Origin: a virus
IMG/VR virus record: IMGVR_UViG_3300045051_000446
Coordinates: 1 to 38,103 of that record
DNA: 38,103 nt
Strand: one strand, 5' to 3'
Made by a program: the position numbers and the translations under genes. A model generated the notes under the pieces. The model ran no database searches and had not been told where the DNA came from. It worked only from the letters and a program-made list of their open reading frames with translations. This document shows, piece after piece, positions 1 through 36,382 of this stretch; position 1 is the stretch's first letter, and each line of letters begins with the position of its first letter.

Positions 1-23
1 TGTTTATTGCAGGAGGAAATCCG

Positions 24-461
24 ATGTCAAAATACAGATTGATTAAATGCGAAATAAAAACCCCTGACAGCCTGATCAAGGCACTGAATGACGTTGGGTG
101 TGCTTACACTCGCTCTCAGGATCTGCGCAAAAACGAAGCCAAGCTGGATACGAATTGGACCCGATGGGGAGGGAAGAGTCAGGAAGTCGCAATCGCTATT
201 CAGAGAAATCATCTAGCAAATGCGACAGGTACCAGTTCGGTTATGGACGGCATCGGCTTTGCCTGGAATGGGAATGGGTACGATCTGATCCAGGATAAGC
301 ACGATGTAAGCAACCTGAAAGTCACGGAGTTTTTGAATAAGCTCAACCAGCGCTATTCGTACCACGAGGCGATGCGCCTGGCGCGCATGAATGGGTACAC
401 CGTCAAGTCGTCAACTTCCGAAAATGGGAAGATCCGCGTTGTTCTTCAAAAGGTAGGGTAA
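24..461 (+). CDS. DUF1257 (Ycf35-like) protein
   Basis: This 145-residue protein resembles the DUF1257/Ycf35 family: N-terminal S-K-Y-R-L-I-K-C-E-I-K, a stretch about a single long side helix, and the central G-T-S-S-V-M-D-G-I-G-F-A-W-N-G-N-G-Y-D-L-I core (about 67-89) typical of the family. The biochemical role of DUF1257 is not established; in cyanobacteria and plastids it is known as Ycf35 and is often encoded with a DUF2997 protein and an AAA ATPase. A strong AGGAGG at 11-16 sets the ATG. The next gene begins 1 bp after its stop and a DUF2997 gene follows, so this is an operon whose upstream part lies left of the window. Family call is from recognisable motifs only. Confidence 0.75.
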   Translation: MSKYRLIKCEIKTPDSLIKALNDVGCAYTRSQDLRKNEAKLDTNWTRWGGKSQEVAIAIQRNHLANATGTSSVMDGIGFAWNGNGYDLIQDKHDVSNLKVTEFLNKLNQRYSYHEAMRLARMNGYTVKSSTSENGKIRVVLQKVG

Positions 462-693: not shown

Positions 694-868
694 AGTTGTG
701 CTTGAGATCGATGAAGCCGGCAAGGTTTCAACTACGGTTCATGGGGTGGACGGCCCGGCCTGCGGAGACCTGACCAAATGGCTTGAGCAGCTCGGCGTGG
801 TCGAAGTGGACAGCCCGACGGACGATTATCGCAAGCAGGGCAGGCAGGGGATTACGATCAGCCGCTAA
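668..868 (+). CDS. DUF2997 family protein
   Basis: A 66-residue protein matching the DUF2997 pattern: a short beta strand, then G-K-V-S-T-T-V-H-G-V-D-G-P-A-C (16-32), then L-T-K-W-L-E-Q-L-G-V-V (35-45). The G-x-x-G-x-x-C stretch followed by an amphipathic helix is the family's hallmark. DUF2997 genes commonly accompany DUF1257 genes; no biochemical function is established. The ATG at 668 has GGAGG at 657-661 and lies inside the end of the preceding gene. A terminator begins 2 bp after the stop, so this is the last gene of the operon. Confidence 0.7.
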   Translation: MLSKSQSHEVVLEIDEAGKVSTTVHGVDGPACGDLTKWLEQLGVVEVDSPTDDYRKQGRQGITISR

Positions 869-870
869 AA

Positions 871-906
871 TCAAAAGACGGACTGCGCAAACAGTCCGTC
901 TTTTGA
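871..906 (+). terminator. intrinsic terminator of the DUF1257/DUF2997 operon
   Basis: A perfect 15-bp inverted repeat (871-885 with 892-906) encloses a 6-base loop. The stem ends in TTTTGA on the right and begins TCAAAAG on the left, so it has U-rich ends in both directions and could stop transcription from either side, including read-through leftward from beyond the integrase. Confidence 0.9.
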
Positions 907-978
907 TTCTGCATTCAACATCTTTGGAGGGGGTGAAGTAATTATACCGTTGTAATATGCCGGCACGGGTGTTTTGTC

Positions 979-1006
979 CTATAATCTTACTTAAACAATG
1001 TCACAG
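979..1006 (+). promoter_or_regulatory. 28-bp operator-like repeat S1 overlapping a -10 box
   Basis: The element starts CTATAATC, continues TTACTTAAACAA and ends TGTCACAG, matching the dispersed 28-bp family described in the findings. Its left arm contains TATAAT (980-985), a consensus -10; I see no good -35 at normal spacing. Its right end runs into CACAGGAGA, the ribosome site of the PH-like gene. A protein bound here would block transcription of that gene. Confidence 0.65.
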
Positions 1007-11209: not shown

Positions 11210-11237
11210 CTATGGATTTACTTAAGCAAGTCGATAC
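11210..11237 (+). promoter_or_regulatory. 28-bp operator-like repeat S3
   Basis: CTATGGATTT, core TTACTTAAGCAA, right end GTCGATAC: the most symmetric core of the family (CTTAAG). It fills most of the 37-bp gap between the chaperone gene and the tape measure gene and abuts the latter's ribosome site. Confidence 0.6.
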
Positions 11238-18588: not shown

Positions 18589-20088
18589 TTACCTCCCAAA
18601 ACCAAACTTCTTGTTGACGGCATTCATCGTCTCCTCGATCTTGGTCCTGGAGACGGCCTGCGAACTTTGAACAGCGGCGCGCTCGCCCAATCCAAACGGG
18701 CGACCCGATCCGCTAATTTCCTTGATGCGCTTCACTTCCGCGTCGATCGCTCCCTGCAAAGCCTCACCGGTAGCGTACTCAGCAAACGCCAGCTCAATTA
18801 CCGACGCCGCGGGCAGGTTGGTCTTTTTTAGCGCGGCCTGGATTTCCTCGCGTGACAGCACGACCGGGGCGTCGACGGCGGGGACTGTTTCTGCCACGGG
18901 TTCAGTCGCCGGCGGGGTTTCTTCCGGAGCGGCTTCTCCCTCGTGGATCGCCACGGGTTCAGTCACCACGGCGGTTTCTTCCACAGGCGCGGGATCTGCT
19001 TCAGGAGTTTGTTCCGGAGCCCCATCCGCGCTTTCCGCCAGGTTGAGCGCTTTCCCACCCGCGCCGGCGCGGGTTACCCAATCCACGGACGATGCGCTGA
19101 TAATGCTTTCCACCACCTTGCCTTTGCGCCCACCCAGCTCAAACCCGGCCCGGGCTTTGCCGTCGGCCAGAATTGAGCATTCGAGGCTTTCCAGTTCACC
19201 CGCTTTGGCGCGATTACGGCAAGCCTCGGCAAAGTCAGGATCAAAGACCACCACCCGCCCAATCGGCGCGCCGGCTTCGGTAAATCCAACGATCTTCTTG
19301 ATTTTGGATACTTCAGAACGGACGTTCTTCTCTTCCTGCTTGTGATCCGTGGCATACATCTTCACGCCTTCGAAGACGTGCGCATCACGGGCCAGCATCT
19401 CTTTGGGGTAGTAGTGGTTATCCCGGCTATTGCCCCAACCTGGAGAGATGAGCTGGACGTCCATCTCCAACGGCCCGCGCGGATCGACAGCGCCTTCGGC
19501 TTCCACCAGGGAAACTGCGGGCTGATAGGATTCGGTAAAAGCTTCGGCTTCCGTACCCAGGCCGGCCATGCTGTCTTCGCCGGTATCCTGCCCGGTCAAT
19601 ACATCGCCGATCACGCCGACGAACTCGTCAAATAGAGTTTGCGCCGCGGTCAGTTTGTCCTGGACTTCGTAAGACCAGAAAATGTTATTGAGCATGTCGG
19701 TAAATTGCCCGACGCGCTCGCGCATGGTTTCGCCCAGCTCCTTGGCAGCTTCCGCGGCCTTGAGCTGCTCAAACGAGATGATGTTATAGGGGATATAGTG
19801 GTACTCTTCCCCATCCCACCACTCGGAAAGCCCATCCTCTTTGGAGGCCACGGCCTTGTGCCCGCCGTCCTGCGTTGCTTCTGACTCAAGCTCCTTCCAG
19901 GTTTTCTTTAGATCCGCCTGGAACGACTCGACCTTTGAGCGCAGCCCGGCCGGCAGGGTTTTGTCTGTCAGGAGCGAACCCAACTCGCGCGAAAGGCGCA
20001 GTACCCGGCTCTTGATCGTTGCCGCCTCTTGCAAGCGCGCCGGCGGCTGTGCGTTTTCTTGTAATTTGACCCAGATTAGTTTTTGCAT
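18589..20088 (-). CDS. prohead protease with scaffold-like C-terminus
   Basis: I choose ATG 20088 (499 residues), which has GAGGC upstream; the frame's first codons from 20136 encode a terminator-type hairpin and are not protein. Residues 1-160 are a helical N-terminal extension. Residues about 205-345 are the protease: M-D-V-Q-L-I-S-P-G-W-G-N, H-Y-Y-P, K-M-Y-A-T-D-H (H249), E-C-S-I-L-A-D-G (S305) and S-S-V-D-W-V-T (D336), matching S78/U35-type His-Ser-Asp residues by position. Residues 350-500 are Pro/Glu/Ala-rich, then helical, like a scaffold. It would cleave capsid and itself during maturation. Confidence 0.85.
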   Translation of the reverse strand: MQKLIWVKLQENAQPPARLQEAATIKSRVLRLSRELGSLLTDKTLPAGLRSKVESFQADLKKTWKELESEATQDGGHKAVASKEDGLSEWWDGEEYHYIPYNIISFEQLKAAEAAKELGETMRERVGQFTDMLNNIFWSYEVQDKLTAAQTLFDEFVGVIGDVLTGQDTGEDSMAGLGTEAEAFTESYQPAVSLVEAEGAVDPRGPLEMDVQLISPGWGNSRDNHYYPKEMLARDAHVFEGVKMYATDHKQEEKNVRSEVSKIKKIVGFTEAGAPIGRVVVFDPDFAEACRNRAKAGELESLECSILADGKARAGFELGGRKGKVVESIISASSVDWVTRAGAGGKALNLAESADGAPEQTPEADPAPVEETAVVTEPVAIHEGEAAPEETPPATEPVAETVPAVDAPVVLSREEIQAALKKTNLPAASVIELAFAEYATGEALQGAIDAEVKRIKEISGSGRPFGLGERAAVQSSQAVSRTKIEETMNAVNKKFGFGR

Positions 20089-20100
20089 TTGTGCCTCGGT

Positions 20101-20134
20101 AAACAAAAAGCGCCAATCCGATAGGGATTGGCGC
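20101..20134 (-). terminator. terminator-type hairpin before the protease gene
   Basis: A 10-bp perfect stem GCGCCAATCC/GGATTGGCGC (20110-20134) with a short loop is followed on the minus strand by TTTTTGTTT, a classic intrinsic terminator, only about 22 bp before the protease ATG. A likely -10 lies upstream at 20170-20175. It may be a read-through attenuator separating the accessory block from the head genes. Confidence 0.8.
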
Positions 20135-20169
20135 AAAGGCTCATGGAAAATCTATGCAGTTATGAAAAG

Positions 20170-20175
20170 ATTATA
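20170..20175 (-). promoter_or_regulatory. -10 element of GCGTTATAATC family (protease gene)
   Basis: Minus strand ATGCGCGTTATAATCTTTT. TATAAT is consensus; I see no good -35. A transcript from here would carry the 20101-20134 hairpin in its leader before the protease gene. Confidence 0.5.
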
Positions 20176-20266
20176 ACGCGCATTATTGGCGCTTCTTTAT
20201 CTTGAATATGTCACGGTCATCTCCACTGGCTATAATCATTACATGACGATTGGATTATTTCTAAGT

Positions 20267-20306
20267 CTATAGAATTATTTTAGTAATTGCACAGATAATT
20301 CTATAG
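20267..20306. promoter_or_regulatory. 40-bp palindromic operator (repeat S4)
   Basis: CTATAGAATTAT (20267-20278) is repeated perfectly inverted at 20295-20306, with a 16-base spacer. Each arm also fits the left arm of the 28-bp family: read rightward, CTATAGAATTATTTTAGTAA; read leftward from the other end, CTATAGAATTAT then CTGTGCAATT. The likely -35 of the rightward promoter (20287-20292) lies in the spacer. This is the clearest operator candidate in the window. Confidence 0.7.
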
Positions 20307-20315
20307 CGTTATAAT
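20287..20315 (+). promoter_or_regulatory. rightward sigma70-type promoter inside the operator
   Basis: TTGCAC (20287-20292), a 17-bp spacer and TATAAT (20310-20315) preceded by GCGT. Start would be near 20322. A weaker TATAAT at 20231-20236 is followed by a similar start-like sequence (TATAATCATT then ATGACG at 20243). Confidence 0.65.
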
Positions 20316-20321
20316 CCATTT

Positions 20322-20440
20322 ATGACAAACGCGGACTCTTGTGTGAAAGGCTCAATGGCGGAACCTATGCCGCCAAAACGGGTGCAATGCCCACCAGAAA
20401 CAAGCGGGTAAGCGATCCAGAGGCCACTGGATCGTTTGCT
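20322..20440 (+). ncRNA. putative short transcript, or leaderless 29-residue ORF
   Basis: The promoter at 20287-20315 and the terminator at 20411-20440 frame a transcript of about 120 nt in the opposite direction to all neighbours. It contains a TGGCGG/CCGCCA hairpin (near 20355-20375). An open frame of 29 residues starts exactly at the predicted +1 (ATG 20322, stop 20411; N-terminus M-T-N-A-D-S-C-V-K), so it could be a leaderless small protein with two cysteines or a regulatory RNA. I do not recognise a known RNA family. This stretch (20089-20440) is otherwise gene-free. Confidence 0.45.
20411..20440 (+). terminator. intrinsic terminator of the short rightward transcript
   Basis: CGATCCAG (20413-20420) pairs with CTGGATCG (20427-20434), extended by A-T and G-T pairs, and is followed by TTTGCTTTATT on the plus strand. 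On the minus strand the following bases are not U-rich, so it faces right. It ends directly at the stop codon of the convergent gene 20441-20887. Confidence 0.75.
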
Positions 20441-20887
20441 TTATTCTGAGAATACGGCTGTGATCTTGCAGGTCCCCGGCGTTCCAACCGCGCCCGACTC
20501 TTGGCAGTTTACCCGCATGCGCTCAGCGGTTTTTGCCAGATCGATCGGGCCAAAGGTGAACTTTTCCACCCCTGCCCCAGTCGACCCGTACTCGATTTCC
20601 TGACGCTGGACGTTGGAAACCACATCCGACCCGGAAGCAACCGCCGCGCCGGCATATTGGGTAATCTGAAACCAGTGGTCTCCCATAGGAACCGGGCTGA
20701 TTTCCACCTTGAGCTGCATGTCCCCGCCCGCTCCGCCGCGCTCGTACTCGATAAAGAGCATGGCTTTGGAAAAGCCCGGGCACTGCATCACCGTTGGGGT
20801 GGTGTCAAACGCGCCGGCCGCGGCCAGAGCTGCGGAAGCGCGGGCAATCTGAAGATCGAGATAGGCGGTGCTGATTGGATGCTCCAT
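20441..20887 (-). CDS. hypothetical structural protein
   Basis: A 148-residue beta-rich protein: M-L-F-I-E-Y-E-R-G and M-Q-L-K-V-E-I-S (about 43-65), H-W-F-Q-I-T-Q, V-E-K-F-T-F-G-P-I and C-K-I-T-A-V-F at the end, fitting a single jelly roll. It is the last gene of the accessory block. GGAGGATCT precedes the ATG. Probably a virion surface or fibre-associated protein; no family recognised. Confidence 0.6.
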   Translation of the reverse strand: MEHPISTAYLDLQIARASAALAAAGAFDTTPTVMQCPGFSKAMLFIEYERGGAGGDMQLKVEISPVPMGDHWFQITQYAGAAVASGSDVVSNVQRQEIEYGSTGAGVEKFTFGPIDLAKTAERMRVNCQESGAVGTPGTCKITAVFSE

Positions 20888-20895
20888 AGATCCTC

Positions 20896-21192
20896 CTAAT
20901 AGAAATTGCTATCTTGAACGATGATCGTTCCCTCGTTGGCGACTGTTCGGGTGCCCGTTGCCTCGAAGCGGTAAAACCAGTTCTTGGCCTGGGTTAGCGC
21001 GATGTCGATGTGATACACGCCTAGCGAGTCCCTGACCAGCTCAACCGCGGTCCCAAAGACATACGAAGTCACCGTCCCGTCGGGCTTTTTGACCTTGCAT
21101 ACCAGTGTGTCCGGGTCGACAAGAGCGCCGGCATCATTGGTGAACGTCGCGGTTATTCGGGGTAAATCGCCGATATGCCATAGTTTTGTCAT
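20896..21192 (-). CDS. small Ig-like structural protein
   Basis: A 98-residue protein with the pattern of phage Ig-like/BppU N-terminal domains: I-T-A-T-F-T-N-D-A-G-A-L-V-D-P (13-27), V-K-K-P-D-G-T-V-T (34-42), G-V-Y-H-I-D-I (58-64), Y-R-F-E-A-T-G (74-80). It starts at the TGATG overlap with the upstream repeat gene, so the two are translationally coupled. Likely a fibre-attached or baseplate domain. Confidence 0.65.
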   Translation of the reverse strand: MTKLWHIGDLPRITATFTNDAGALVDPDTLVCKVKKPDGTVTSYVFGTAVELVRDSLGVYHIDIALTQAKNWFYRFEATGTRTVANEGTIIVQDSNFY

Positions 21193-24084: not shown

Positions 24085-24711
24085 TTACCCACCCGCAGTA
24101 AAGGTCAGCTCATAGGTCGCAACGAAAGAATCCCCGCTGCTCAGGTTGACCACGCTGAACACTGTCCGGTCCAGTAGCGTCCCCGCCGATGCGGCGCTAA
24201 AAACGCCGTGTTCTGTCACTGCCGCCGATCCATCCACCGTCACTGTCCCCACCGAGCGATAAATATTCGCGCTCCCCCCGGCCACGTGCGTCCCCGCCGG
24301 GCGGGTCGAGTCTGGGTTATAAGCTGTGGTAATTTCAGTGACCAGCTGTGTGTCCGAGGCGTTCTCTGCTGTGTTTCCAGTGCCCAGGCCATGATAGAAG
24401 AAGTTTCCAGGACTGGCCGGCGTCTGAAACGACGTGCTCATCGCCGTCACGCCGGCAGTCGTCACGACCCGGTAACCGACCACACCGTAATCGATCCATT
24501 CGCCGGACGCCTTCTTGACTCGCACCATTAGCCGGCTGGTGACCGTCCCAAACCCGATCAACTTCGCCAGCAGTGGCGCGAAAATAAACGCGATCCACCC
24601 GCGGATATAGCTCCAGCGCAGGCGGTTTGCAATTTGCCAGCCTAGGCCCGGCCCTTTTGCCCGCCTGACCTGGTACGATAAAATTCCACTTGGTTGCGAT
24701 AGACCTTCCAT
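24085..24711 (-). CDS. hypothetical virion protein with jelly-roll C-terminus
   Basis: I choose ATG 24711 (208 residues); CGAGGAGG is 7 bp upstream and the longer frame from 24759 runs through a terminator hairpin. Residues 15-60 include a hydrophobic stretch (W-I-A-F-I-F-A-P-L-L-A-K-L-I-G-F) that may be a membrane or fibre-packing helix. The rest is beta-rich with G-N-F-F-Y-H-G-L-G-T-G-N-T-A-E and A-G-T-L-L-D-R-T-V-F, the latter a motif I know from unannotated phage structural proteins. It begins a new transcription unit. Confidence 0.6.
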   Translation of the reverse strand: MEGLSQPSGILSYQVRRAKGPGLGWQIANRLRWSYIRGWIAFIFAPLLAKLIGFGTVTSRLMVRVKKASGEWIDYGVVGYRVVTTAGVTAMSTSFQTPASPGNFFYHGLGTGNTAENASDTQLVTEITTAYNPDSTRPAGTHVAGGSANIYRSVGTVTVDGSAAVTEHGVFSAASAGTLLDRTVFSVVNLSSGDSFVATYELTFTAGG

Positions 24712-24727
24712 AAAATCCTCCTCGGAA

Positions 24728-24756
24728 ACAAAAAAAGCCGCCACGATGTGACGGCT
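24728..24756 (-). terminator. terminator-type hairpin before the 24085-24711 gene
   Basis: AGCCG (24736-24740) pairs with CGGCT (24752-24756), extended to 7 of 8 pairs, followed on the minus strand by TTTTTTTGTTT. As with the protease gene, it lies just before the ribosome site, downstream of a -10 box at 24796-24801. Confidence 0.7.
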
Positions 24757-24795
24757 CAAAGGCGCAGCGGAACATGGTTCCGGATGTCAATTAGG

Positions 24796-24801
24796 ATTAT
24801 A
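24796..24801 (-). promoter_or_regulatory. -10 element of GCGTTATAATC family
   Basis: Minus strand CCGCGCTATAATCCTAATTGACA. It begins about 20 bp after the stop of the upstream gene 24821-25450. A transcript would carry the hairpin 24728-24756 in its leader. Confidence 0.5.
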
Positions 24802-24820
24802 GCGCGGATTTAGGGCGCGT

Positions 24821-26040: not shown

Positions 26041-26068
26041 CTATAGAGTTACTATGATAATTCTTTAG
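26041..26068 (+). promoter_or_regulatory. 28-bp operator-like repeat S5
   Basis: CTATAGAG, core TTACTATGATAA, end TTCTTTAG. It contains the stop codon region of the next gene (26052) and sits directly upstream of the ribosome site for gene 25814-26023. Confidence 0.6.
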
Positions 26069-31600: not shown

Positions 31601-31628
31601 CTATGAACTTACTTAAACAATTCCATAG
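31601..31628 (+). promoter_or_regulatory. 28-bp operator-like repeat S6
   Basis: CTATGAAC, core TTACTTAAACAA, end TTCCATAG: the best symmetric arms in the family (CTATGgA/TtCCATAG). It lies in the 38-bp gap between the TerS start and the end of the membrane gene at 31630. Confidence 0.65.
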
Positions 31629-32071: not shown

Positions 32072-32491
32072 TTACTCGCTGTCAGGCGTTTCTGGATTGG
32101 AGGACGGCGCATCTTCCAGCTCGTGGATCTGGTATTTTGGAAGCGGCCCGGGTTGTTTGGCTACACTGACGATGAAGCCGCCAATTATGGCAGATAAAGC
32201 AATGAGCATATCCGGGGTAATCCCCTCGGGCAAAACGATCTTCAGCCCGTCGACAATAATCAAGGCAAAACCAACCACCGCGGCCCAAAACTTGCGCGAT
32301 GCCAGCCACCCGCGCCACCCGCCCGGGCCAGGGTCCTGGGTCAGGCCGTACAGGTAGGAGACAATCACCAGCACCAATGAAGCAGCGCCGGCAATGTCGA
32401 TCTTGAAGCCAGGGAGGAATTGACCCAGGAGGATCACCGCCAGGCCAAGGATGGATACCCAAAACTCGCGTGATGTCAAAAGGTTTTTCAT
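32072..32491 (-). CDS. putative holin (duplicated two-TM protein)
   Basis: I choose ATG 32491 (139 residues; AAAGGGGC upstream); the longer frame from 32530 would translate a terminator hairpin. It has about four membrane segments in two similar halves: S-R-E-F-W-V-S-I-L-G-L-A-V-I-L-L (7-22) and S-R-K-F-W-A-A-V-V-G-F-A-L-I-I-V (about 65-80), each followed by a second hydrophobic stretch. The C-terminus is polar and acidic. Short membrane proteins in this place are often holins. The internal duplication is notable. Holin identity is inferred. Confidence 0.6.
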   Translation of the reverse strand: MKNLLTSREFWVSILGLAVILLGQFLPGFKIDIAGAASLVLVIVSYLYGLTQDPGPGGWRGWLASRKFWAAVVGFALIIVDGLKIVLPEGITPDMLIALSAIIGGFIVSVAKQPGPLPKYQIHELEDAPSSNPETPDSE

Positions 32492-32510
32492 AGGAGCCCC
32501 TTTCCGAATA

Positions 32511-32557
32511 TAAAAATCCCGGAGTCGCAACGAATATGATTCGTCGCGCTCCGGGAT
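32511..32557 (-). terminator. terminator-type hairpin before the holin-like gene
   Basis: ATCCCGGAG (32516-32524) pairs with CTCCGGGAT (32549-32557), with an inner imperfect stem around a CGAAT/ATTCG core, and the minus strand continues ATTTTTAT. The ribosome site and ATG follow within about 20 bp. A -10 box lies upstream at 32586-32591. Confidence 0.75.
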
Positions 32558-32585
32558 CTATGCCTACTGGCAAGCGTGTAAAAAG

Positions 32586-32591
32586 ATTATA
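32586..32591 (-). promoter_or_regulatory. -10 element of GCGTTATAATC family (holin-like gene)
   Basis: Minus strand ACGCGCGTTATAATCTTTTT. A TTAAGT 16 bp upstream may act as -35 and belongs to a partial 28-bp repeat (ACTTAAACAA at 32608-32617). This links the two sequence families. Confidence 0.5.
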
Positions 32592-32619
32592 ACGCGCGTA
32601 AAAGCCGACTTAAACAATC

Positions 32620-33906: not shown

Positions 33907-34508
33907 CACTTCCACCCCCGCTCTTTCTTGGCCCGTTCATAGGCGGCCTGGACTTTCAAGAATTTCTCATTATCTGCCAACGATCCTCCCGAGTCGGGAT
34001 GGTACGCTATCGCCAATGCACGGTAAGCCATTCTTACCCCATCTTCATGGGTATCCCTTGGCACCCCAAGCACATTCCACCACTCATCCGGGGTAGGCGC
34101 CGGCAAAGCCTGATAACCGGAGAACGCCTGTTCAACCGTGCCAACCTTCCAACGCTCCTGTCCCCGAATTGCTTCCACGTGCTTTCCAATCGCCCATAGG
34201 TTATCTTCAACTTTGTTCCAGGCGTCGCAAGCCAAAACGCACGGCCTGCCTTTCAGGCTGAAATACACAGCGACTCCGGTATCGATTGGAGCACGCCGGC
34301 CCGACCGGGGCAATCCATCCTGCCGCAATTCGATATTGGTCGAAATGATCACCCCGCGCGCGCCAAGCATCCGCAGCTCGTCAAGGACAAAATCCCGCGC
34401 TTTCGCCAGAGTCCTTTCAGCAAATGCCGACTTTGCCCGCCGGTGCACTTCCGTTCGCGGCCAACCGACCGGCCATGAAAGAGGATACGCATCGATGCCT
34501 TCAAACAT
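33906..34508 (-). CDS. J-domain protein
   Basis: ATG 34508 (200 residues; GGAGAAA upstream) is chosen over the frame start at 34595. Residues 1-120 contain Y-P-L-S-W-P-V-G-W-P-R-T (8-19), the known N-terminal pattern of phage J-domain proteins, and W-K-V-G-T-V-E-Q-A-F. The J domain is at about 140-200 with W-N-V-L-G-V (144-149) and the H170-P-D172 signature needed to stimulate Hsp70 ATPase. It may divert the host DnaK system. It overlaps its neighbours by 8 bp and 1 bp, so it belongs to one tight operon. Confidence 0.85.
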   Translation of the reverse strand: MFEGIDAYPLSWPVGWPRTEVHRRAKSAFAERTLAKARDFVLDELRMLGARGVIISTNIELRQDGLPRSGRRAPIDTGVAVYFSLKGRPCVLACDAWNKVEDNLWAIGKHVEAIRGQERWKVGTVEQAFSGYQALPAPTPDEWWNVLGVPRDTHEDGVRMAYRALAIAYHPDSGGSLADNEKFLKVQAAYERAKKERGWK

Positions 34509-34959: not shown

Positions 34960-36298
34960 GTATCCTCTCTCGTGGTTTTGTCTTTACCGGCTGTGTTTCT
35001 TCCGTGTCCCAATTTTCGGATTGAGGGCTTTTAGGGCTTTTAGGGATATTGGAGGATTCATCTAAAACCAAACGCAAAAGAGCCGTAGGGACTCTTGCGT
35101 TTGAATTATTCTTATCTTTTTCAAGCCATCCCCGCGATTCCCATTGCTTCAATAACTTTTGCCCGTTCCACTCGCTCATGTTATAGATTTGTTTAAGTAA
35201 CGCGATAGATAACGTACACTCTCCTTGAAGCGCGTACTGCGCAATCTCCAATTCAATCCCATACAGCCGCGGGCCGCCATAAGCATTTCCATCTGGCAAT
35301 GTAATCAGGAACGCCTGCCCTTCAATCAACCGCGCGTTGTGCTCAAATAGCATCCGGCCTTTGATATTCGGCAAGCTCTCCGCGCCCTTCACGCCCAGGA
35401 TCACCCTGCTTTCCGACTGGGTTGGCACGGGAAGGGCGATCTTTAGCCCAATATTAGCCTTGATCAACGCCCCAACCTCTTTGTGCCCTGGGTAGGTTGT
35501 CCCCAGGATGGGATAAACGCCGTACGCCCCGCAGCGCCCAATCAGATCACCCAATATCGGCCGGCAGTCCGCCGGGATATGGGCGATTTCATCCACTACC
35601 AGAACCAGGACGGCCATGCGACTTTCTGGGTGCAGCTCGTTGTATTCGATGATCGACGTCGCCCCGATCTCGGATAACACCCGCTGCCGGCGGTTGACCT
35701 CGATCTGGATATCGATCAGGGCCTGCCTGAGATTATCTTGCGCCAGATGCACGCACGGATGGTTGCAGTAGCGCCGGAATTCCATCCCGCCCTTCCCATC
35801 CCGCAGATACAGCTCCGACTGCCCACCGTGGATCAGGGCCTGGATACAGCCGTGGATAATCATGCTCTTGCCCATCCGCCGGCGGCCTGAAACCAGGATC
35901 GAGTCGGCATCGATGATCGAAATCCAGAACGGTCCGGGGCGTGTACTACCAATCGGGATATGTAGTGGAGTCGGCTGCTGTGTCAGGTCAAGCGGCGTCG
36001 AGCGCAGCGCGTGCGGGGCAGGCGGGGGACTCCAGGCAATCTGGAGAAAGATCCCGCGCGAATTGGTTTGCACCACGCGCCGGCCGGCAAGGATTGTCGA
36101 TAGGTCGTGCCGGAATTCAGCCGAAAGGATCTTCTGTTGGTTTTTGATCATTTCCGGATCACAAACCAAGATCAGCCGGTCAGACTGCGGCCAGGCGTAA
36201 AAGACGGGTCGCGCGGGCCCATCTACGATGATTTTTTGCCGGCGCATCAGATCGATTGCGCGCCGGGCAATATGGTTGACTAAAATTTTATTTGTCAT
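34937..36298 (-). CDS. FtsK/SpoIIIE-like DNA translocase
   Basis: ATG 36298 (453 residues; GGGGAGC upstream) is chosen; the frame also opens from TTG 36331. The ATPase has Walker A G138-R-R-R-M-G-K-S145, a D-G-K-G-G-M-E-F element (about 167-174) as in FtsK/HerA proteins, and Walker B L-V-V-D236-E237. Q/T-rich ATPase motifs G-T-T-Y and G-R-M-L-F follow. The C-terminal 60 residues form a winged helix (Y-N-M-S-E-W-N-G-Q-K-L-L-K-Q-W). It could move or segregate DNA, as in plasmid-like prophages or conjugative elements; it lacks the long FtsK membrane domain. It is not a packaging terminase. Confidence 0.8.
   Translation of the reverse strand: MTNKILVNHIARRAIDLMRRQKIIVDGPARPVFYAWPQSDRLILVCDPEMIKNQQKILSAEFRHDLSTILAGRRVVQTNSRGIFLQIAWSPPPAPHALRSTPLDLTQQPTPLHIPIGSTRPGPFWISIIDADSILVSGRRRMGKSMIIHGCIQALIHGGQSELYLRDGKGGMEFRRYCNHPCVHLAQDNLRQALIDIQIEVNRRQRVLSEIGATSIIEYNELHPESRMAVLVLVVDEIAHIPADCRPILGDLIGRCGAYGVYPILGTTYPGHKEVGALIKANIGLKIALPVPTQSESRVILGVKGAESLPNIKGRMLFEHNARLIEGQAFLITLPDGNAYGGPRLYGIELEIAQYALQGECTLSIALLKQIYNMSEWNGQKLLKQWESRGWLEKDKNNSNARVPTALLRLVLDESSNIPKSPKSPQSENWDTEETQPVKTKPRERIHEYQLHE
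35181..35208 (-). promoter_or_regulatory. 28-bp operator-like repeat S7 inside the FtsK-like gene
   Basis: Minus strand CTATCGCG, core TTACTTAAACAA, end ATCTATAA. It lies within codons for L-S-I-A-L-L-K-Q-I-Y-N in the winged-helix part, far from any gene start. The only copy in coding sequence. Confidence 0.5.
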
Positions 36299-36354: not shown

Positions 36355-36382
36355 CTAAGCCGTTATCATAGTAAATCCATAG
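36355..36382 (-). promoter_or_regulatory. 28-bp operator-like repeat S8
   Basis: Minus strand CTATGGAT, core TTACTATGATAA, end CGGCTTAG, almost identical to S2. It lies in the gap between the coiled-coil membrane gene and the FtsK-like gene, about 57 bp upstream of the latter's start. Confidence 0.65.

Follow-up and report, generated by a model that had tools for sequence, protein, structure and literature searches.

A predicted small RNA gene with an operator-like palindrome, antisense to the late genes of a temperate phage, and its possible link to terminator-containing leaders

Background

What is produced by a rightward promoter and terminator set within a late gene cluster whose neighbouring genes are all read leftward? 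The question is raised by positions 20089-20440 of an uncultured temperate tailed phage of 38,103 bp (IMG/VR record IMGVR_UViG_3300045051_000446), which was analysed over its whole length and is called the window below; its minus strand carries the genes for integrase, tape measure, major capsid protein, head protease, portal and terminases. A first-pass annotation had treated these positions as one 352-bp control region, with a leaderless small protein or a small RNA (sRNA) as its suggested product and a suggested role as a decision or timing element.

The best relative of the window is contig G001 (IMGVR_UViG_3300048837_000795, 65 kb; loci L006 and L020-L023), with a capsid protein 78% identical to that of the window and the same structural gene order, and about 38 further loci encode a capsid protein at least 45% identical to it. 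Neither a pattern search nor a capsid-alignment search of genome contigs found relatives in bacterial or archaeal genomes. The DUF1257 and DUF2997 genes (window 3-461 and 668-868), an unusual phage cargo, are also present in G001.

Where a strong promoter is followed at once by a terminator, read-through is usually regulated; in the late leader of lambda (pR'-tR', 6S RNA), for instance, promoter and terminator precede the late genes and read-through depends on Q antitermination.

Results and discussion

The predicted small RNA gene

The rightward unit has the parts that the first-pass annotation had ascribed to it. On the plus strand, TTGCAC (20287-20292) and TATAAT (20310-20315) are separated by a 17-bp spacer, forming a promoter at 20287-20315 with a -10 of the GCGTTATAATC type, and a predicted intrinsic terminator with a 14-bp stem lies at 20407-20440, with a U-rich tail that reaches 20446; the flanking genes are indeed all on the minus strand. 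The predicted transcript runs from 20322 to 20446 (plus strand, about 120-125 nt) and ends at this terminator. A further plus-strand consensus promoter at 20208-20236 (TATAATCATTACATGACG), upstream of the sRNA promoter and not conserved in G001, could give rise to a longer form of the RNA.

The element has a DNA homologue at G001:55750-55880 (75% identity over 203 bp, E about 1e-25), which removes chance as an explanation of it. When both strands of the window and of the relatives scanned were searched for an exact TATAAT with an intrinsic terminator no more than 190 nt downstream, 17 cases were found, two of which are the window sRNA and its homologue. The G001 copy retains the TATAAT -10, the -35 not being conserved. 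The conserved core of the RNA lies at 20338-20399; over 20340-20399, 52 of the 60 positions are identical in G001, a score among the best for non-overlapping windows (10,823 aligned windows compared, median 41). Upstream of the core, a 25-mer ranks fourth in length among the exact matches that the genomes share. The predicted fold of the RNA has a z-score of -2.3 (4 of 200 shuffles fold as well). The first-pass annotation had proposed a covariance search for a conserved structure: the terminator stem is kept in G001, where one base pair has changed in a compensatory way (A-U to U-G), a weak covariation signal drawn from two sequences only, and a covariance model recovered just these two copies over 56 sources.

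No homologue was detected in Rfam, in phage or plasmid collections, in bacterial genomes or in IMG/VR contigs besides G001, and the viral-contig patterns, the genome-contig pattern and nhmmer returned only the two known copies; pattern matches in the viral contigs L010 and L012 were discarded because they lie inside coding sequence. The window contains no Rfam family above the gathering cut-off, C4 included, and no tRNA or tmRNA. The best match, to FuFi-1 (20.8 bits, 59.6 needed), is absent from the G001 homologue and was taken as chance. With its own promoter and intrinsic terminator, an intergenic position, conservation between two phages and a predicted non-coding character, the unit at 20267-20446 is in our judgement highly likely to be a phage sRNA gene. 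As such it would belong to a known kind of gene; it stands outside any Rfam family and occurs in an unusual setting.

Coding potential

The ATG at the predicted +1 (20322) does open a 29-codon frame, which runs to 20411, as the first-pass annotation had observed, and a leaderless mRNA for a small protein of 29-30 amino acids has some points in its favour: each phage has an ATG at or beside the predicted +1 and keeps the frame open, the two versions differing by a 3-nt indel that preserves the reading frame and stopping at the homologous place. The differences between window and G001 are, however, spread evenly over codon positions 1, 2 and 3 (6, 7 and 7), with no synonymous excess and hence no sign of purifying selection at the codon level; the tails diverge, and no protein relative of the frame was found in the phage collection. 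Moreover, nearby promoters that open only trivial frames also have ATGAC at their +1, namely those at window 20231 (TATAATCATTACATGACG) and of G001 leader 2, whose frame (TATAATGATTATGACAATTCG) stops after four codons. From the even differences and these trivial frames we conclude that the RNA is most likely non-coding, and a leaderless mRNA is very improbable. Of the two products offered earlier, the small protein is accordingly dropped and the sRNA kept, the latter on the strength of the homologue, the conserved -10, the terminator with its compensatory change and conservation at the nucleotide level.

Position relative to the neighbouring genes

The RNA at 20322-20446 lies between gene ends, and only its last few bases reach the neighbouring stop at 20441; it overlaps neither the coding sequence nor the start of a supposed target. 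The OOP, aQ and sar RNAs of lambda and P22 resemble it as small RNAs that run against the adjacent genes and may serve in timing (PMC12197685); each of them, however, overlaps its target and pairs with that target's start or coding sequence, whereas the window sRNA overlaps just an intergenic gap.

This arrangement could also be that of an interfering transcript acting in cis, in which opposing transcription, or a perfect duplex followed by cleavage, shields the promoter and leader of the protease gene against late mRNA reading through from upstream, the sequence of the RNA mattering little. Several features would suit such a role: the RNA of either phage opposes an intergenic gap flanked by late genes that share one direction, it terminates at, or shortly ahead of, the 3' end of the gene upstream, and no good minus-strand terminator follows 20441. 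The core, on the other hand, is conserved far beyond the need of an insulating transcript, while its genomic position has shifted. The G001 copy is likewise antisense to late genes in the portal-protease interval, lying about 2.8 kb from the protease gene with the homologue of window gene 20896-21192 on its other side, so that its place among the neighbouring genes has changed. We regard interference in cis as rather unlikely.

Operator-like palindromes

The sRNA promoter is associated with a palindrome. As earlier described, a perfect-armed 40-bp palindrome is present at 20267-20306, with 12-nt arms CTATAGAATTAT and ATAATTCTATAG and a 16-nt centre; the promoter was said to lie inside it, which is true of the -35 and not of the -10, the latter being 3 bp outside. 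Sequence comparison shows the 40-bp palindrome to be the local variant of an operator-like site of 28 bp that recurs genome-wide. The 28-bp site itself is at 20267-20294, centred at -41.5 of the sRNA, and 20263-20287 is identical in G001; the extra half-site ATAATTCTATAG at 20295-20306, absent in G001, extends it to 40 bp.

A position weight matrix was built from the 20267 palindrome and its near matches. At a cut-off of at least 13 bits it gave eight sites in the window and nine in G001, with two to three matches in the reversed null and no site in 38 other relative loci. The consensus is about CTATAGAnTTAyTnnnrTAAnTCTATAG and scores about equally on both strands; a search of the window with it gave 11 matches, representing both strands of six sites, against 0.0 expected. 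Many copies abut gene starts, including 11210-11237 (7 bp before the tape-measure gene) and 31601-31628 (9 bp before the terminase small subunit gene), as well as that of a portal-proximal small gene conserved in G001; the copy at 26041-26068 is at a gene start and has its homologous position at G001:59179. Others accompany consensus promoters at distances that are alike, with centres at -58.5 for 979-1006 (minus-strand promoter) and for 2322-2349 (integrase promoter) and at -57.5 for G001 leader 1, and the sRNA promoter of G001 has an operator-like centre at -47.5. The two remaining window copies are at 35181-35208 and, upstream of an FtsK-like gene, at 36355-36382. Three copies in G001 (18987, 31312 and 33046) are followed by a common leader of about 50-60 nt (GCTTAATTT.TTGCGC.GAAACCGGTTTTAAGTAC) before plus-strand genes.

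These repeats very probably form an operator family, and the natural reading of their symmetry is a dimeric regulator that binds the 28-bp palindromes and could act as activator, repressor or roadblock. G001 encodes a Cro/CI-type helix-turn-helix protein (HTH_26), and no repressor gene was identified in the window. Promoters of a single-subunit RNA polymerase were considered for the 28-bp repeat and rejected because the repeat is palindromic.

Two known repeat systems are analogues of these sites by distribution, not by sequence or symmetry. In the temperate mycobacteriophage L5, repressor operators and stoperators are likewise scattered over the genome, at promoters and in short gaps between genes; these sites are 13-bp, asymmetric and bound by a monomer (PMC9283540). 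Identity with the L5 type was rejected, as a 28-bp palindrome scoring about equally on both strands stands against a 13-bp asymmetric site oriented with transcription. The SAS/ESAS repeats of Cluster K phages, partly inverted, also lie just upstream of many start codons (PMC3203893), whereas the 28-bp repeats occur also at promoters far from starts; the window has no match to GGGATAGGAGCCC at up to two mismatches, and identity with SAS was likewise rejected.

Leaders of late genes

The sRNA part of the supposed single 352-bp control region holds, and its left part, 20089-20180, is a separate minus-strand unit that had been overlooked. This unit is the leader of a head-maturation-protease-like gene (18589-20088, minus strand; phrog_15531, E 2.6e-7; relatives L003, L006 and L009). 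The leader (20088-20179, minus strand, 82% identical in G001) has a promoter of the GCGTTATAATC type with its -10 at 20170-20175 and +1 at about 20163, a UGAGCC box at 20138-20143, a predicted strong terminator hairpin at 20110-20134 with a 10-bp stem and a UUUUUGUUU tail, a Shine-Dalgarno sequence (SD) and the ATG at 20088, the hairpin thus separating the promoter from the start codon. The extended -10 GCGTTATAATC occurs in five exact copies in the window (20169, 20306, 32585, 32941 and 33066); with up to two mismatches, 18 were found against 8.2 expected.

The same build is seen in a second leader at 24711-24805 (minus strand: promoter, UUUGAGCC, terminator, SD, ATG) and, without the box, in a third at 32480-32595 (minus strand: promoter, terminator, SD), which precedes a small hydrophobic gene of the lysis cassette, beside a spanin-like gene. 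Within the third, 32545-32576 is a 32-nt exact match to G001, one of the two longest between the genomes, and this stretch is found in no relative other than G001. Late-gene leaders of one build thus recur in this phage group: some 20-30 nt after the promoter comes a UGAGCC or UGAGCU box, and then a predicted intrinsic terminator, the SD and the start. Examples are the leaders at 20088 and 24711 in the window, and G001 has three. TGAGCC between a -10 and a terminator was encountered in six cases, and TGAGCT in two more, each time immediately ahead of the start of a late gene; for 60 permuted 6-mers the counts averaged 0.8 and never exceeded 4. The box also occurs in relatives where the sRNA was not found, and would therefore have some other function too. 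Judged by eye, the distant protease leaders L046:5089, L048:7901, L049:4314 and L059:7968 have an upstream GGCU that could pair in cis with the UGAGCC/UGAGCU box; none was seen in the protease leader of the window phage, which has the sRNA.

A promoter, a GC-rich hairpin with a U-tract and then a gene make up the predicted arrangement of a transcription attenuator, and this role is somewhat better than even in our estimate. The hairpins could instead be 5'-stabilising structures near the start codon, or elements for ribosome loading, the sRNA then being a by-product of a strong divergent promoter. A hairpin and U-rich tract do stand right before the SD in all leaders, as this alternative would have it. 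Stems of 10-11 bp, GC-rich and followed by UUUUUGUUU, nevertheless resemble intrinsic terminators by standard criteria, and the sRNA is itself conserved; we hold this combination to be improbable. Attenuation, the preferred reading, would differ from the lambda late leader in that several separate late units of the window phage each have a promoter-terminator leader. No Q-family antiterminator was matched among the proteins scanned and no qut site was identified. With an sRNA promoter that carries a copy of the genome-wide operator-like site and adjoins an attenuator-type leader of a head gene, the earlier description of the region as a decision or timing element is plausible.

Complementarity of the small RNA to the leaders

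A candidate seed, AAAGGCUCAA at 20346-20355, is identical in both phages and is the complement of the UGAGCC leader box. By inspection, it matches the adjacent protease leader (window leader 1) over 9 nt and the others over 7-8 nt, so that all five leaders of both phages have seed matches of 7-9 nt. The A-rich flanks of the seed are predicted to be unpaired and its GCUC partly paired (in the window RNA, the probability of being unpaired is about 0.2-0.4); the leader box is for the most part also predicted to be partly paired. A hairpin region of the sRNA, CGGAACCUAUGCC at 20359-20371, is complementary to GGCAUAGAUCCCG in the perfectly conserved lysis leader, and at each of four varying positions one of the two phages matches. 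Joint complementarity over the two phages was reached by 2 of 300 column shuffles for the lysis leader (P about 0.007) and gave P 0.11 for the protease leader, for matches that are short and were chosen post hoc; whole-duplex energies of sRNA and leaders were no better than those of shuffles (P 0.17-0.87). In the genome-wide comparison, the top complementarity matches to the plus strand were set aside, since the mRNA there is not of that strand. Pairing of the sRNA with the leaders is a tentative proposal at this level of evidence.

The RNA might instead address host mRNAs or a host protein, for example as an sRNA sponge, and have nothing to do with the phage leaders. The phage sRNAs VpdS and PreS act on host RNAs (PMC12197685), and the weak duplex energies with the phage leaders would be in keeping with such targets; the seed, against this, complements a box conserved in the phage's own leaders, one of them adjacent. 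Host targets strike us as doubtful, though not remote. An sRNA directed at phage mRNA has a parallel in IsrK of Gifsy-1, also a phage-encoded short terminated RNA, which acts in trans on phage mRNA in the lytic programme and is a terminated short form of its own target transcript (PMC4825925). The window sRNA differs in being divergent to its supposed targets, and the likeness is one of kind; a sequence relation to IsrK is not claimed.

Proposed mechanism

Our preferred reading, to which we give a probability of about 0.4, is that an operator-controlled sRNA acts post-transcriptionally on the phage's own terminator-containing late leaders. The regulator of the genome-wide 28-bp palindromes would sit on the sRNA promoter and control a non-coding RNA of about 120 nt that terminates at its own intrinsic terminator. 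In the adjacent head-protease leader, the UGAGCC box immediately preceding the terminator would be the partner of the seed AAAGGCUCAA; in the leader of the lysis gene, the loop region of the sRNA would pair at the 5' arm of the terminator. By altering read-through or translation, upward or downward, such pairing would adjust when, or how strongly, head and lysis genes are expressed.

In its fullest form the proposal would have several late operons with strong promoters, each stopped straight away by a terminator in the leader, a UGAGCC box being shared by many of the leaders, and, in at least two phages, an operator-controlled sRNA acting in trans on the head-protease and lysis leaders at once, timing head assembly against lysis; as a whole this is distinctly unlikely. 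The locus is of interest as a conserved phage sRNA outside known families that is tied by sequence to a set of operator-like sites and to a repeated leader architecture. If action in trans on terminator-containing leaders is true, it would be a compact way of coordinating head and lysis genes without an antiterminator protein.

A second micro-transcript

A second micro-transcript is predicted at window 865-934 (minus strand), with a consensus -10, about 70 nt and a very strong terminator. It is antisense between small plus-strand genes (the DUF2997 gene and a gene starting near 1017) and lies beside the operator copy at 979. At the homologous place in G001 (34222-34284, minus strand) there is also a promoter-terminator unit, of unrelated sequence.
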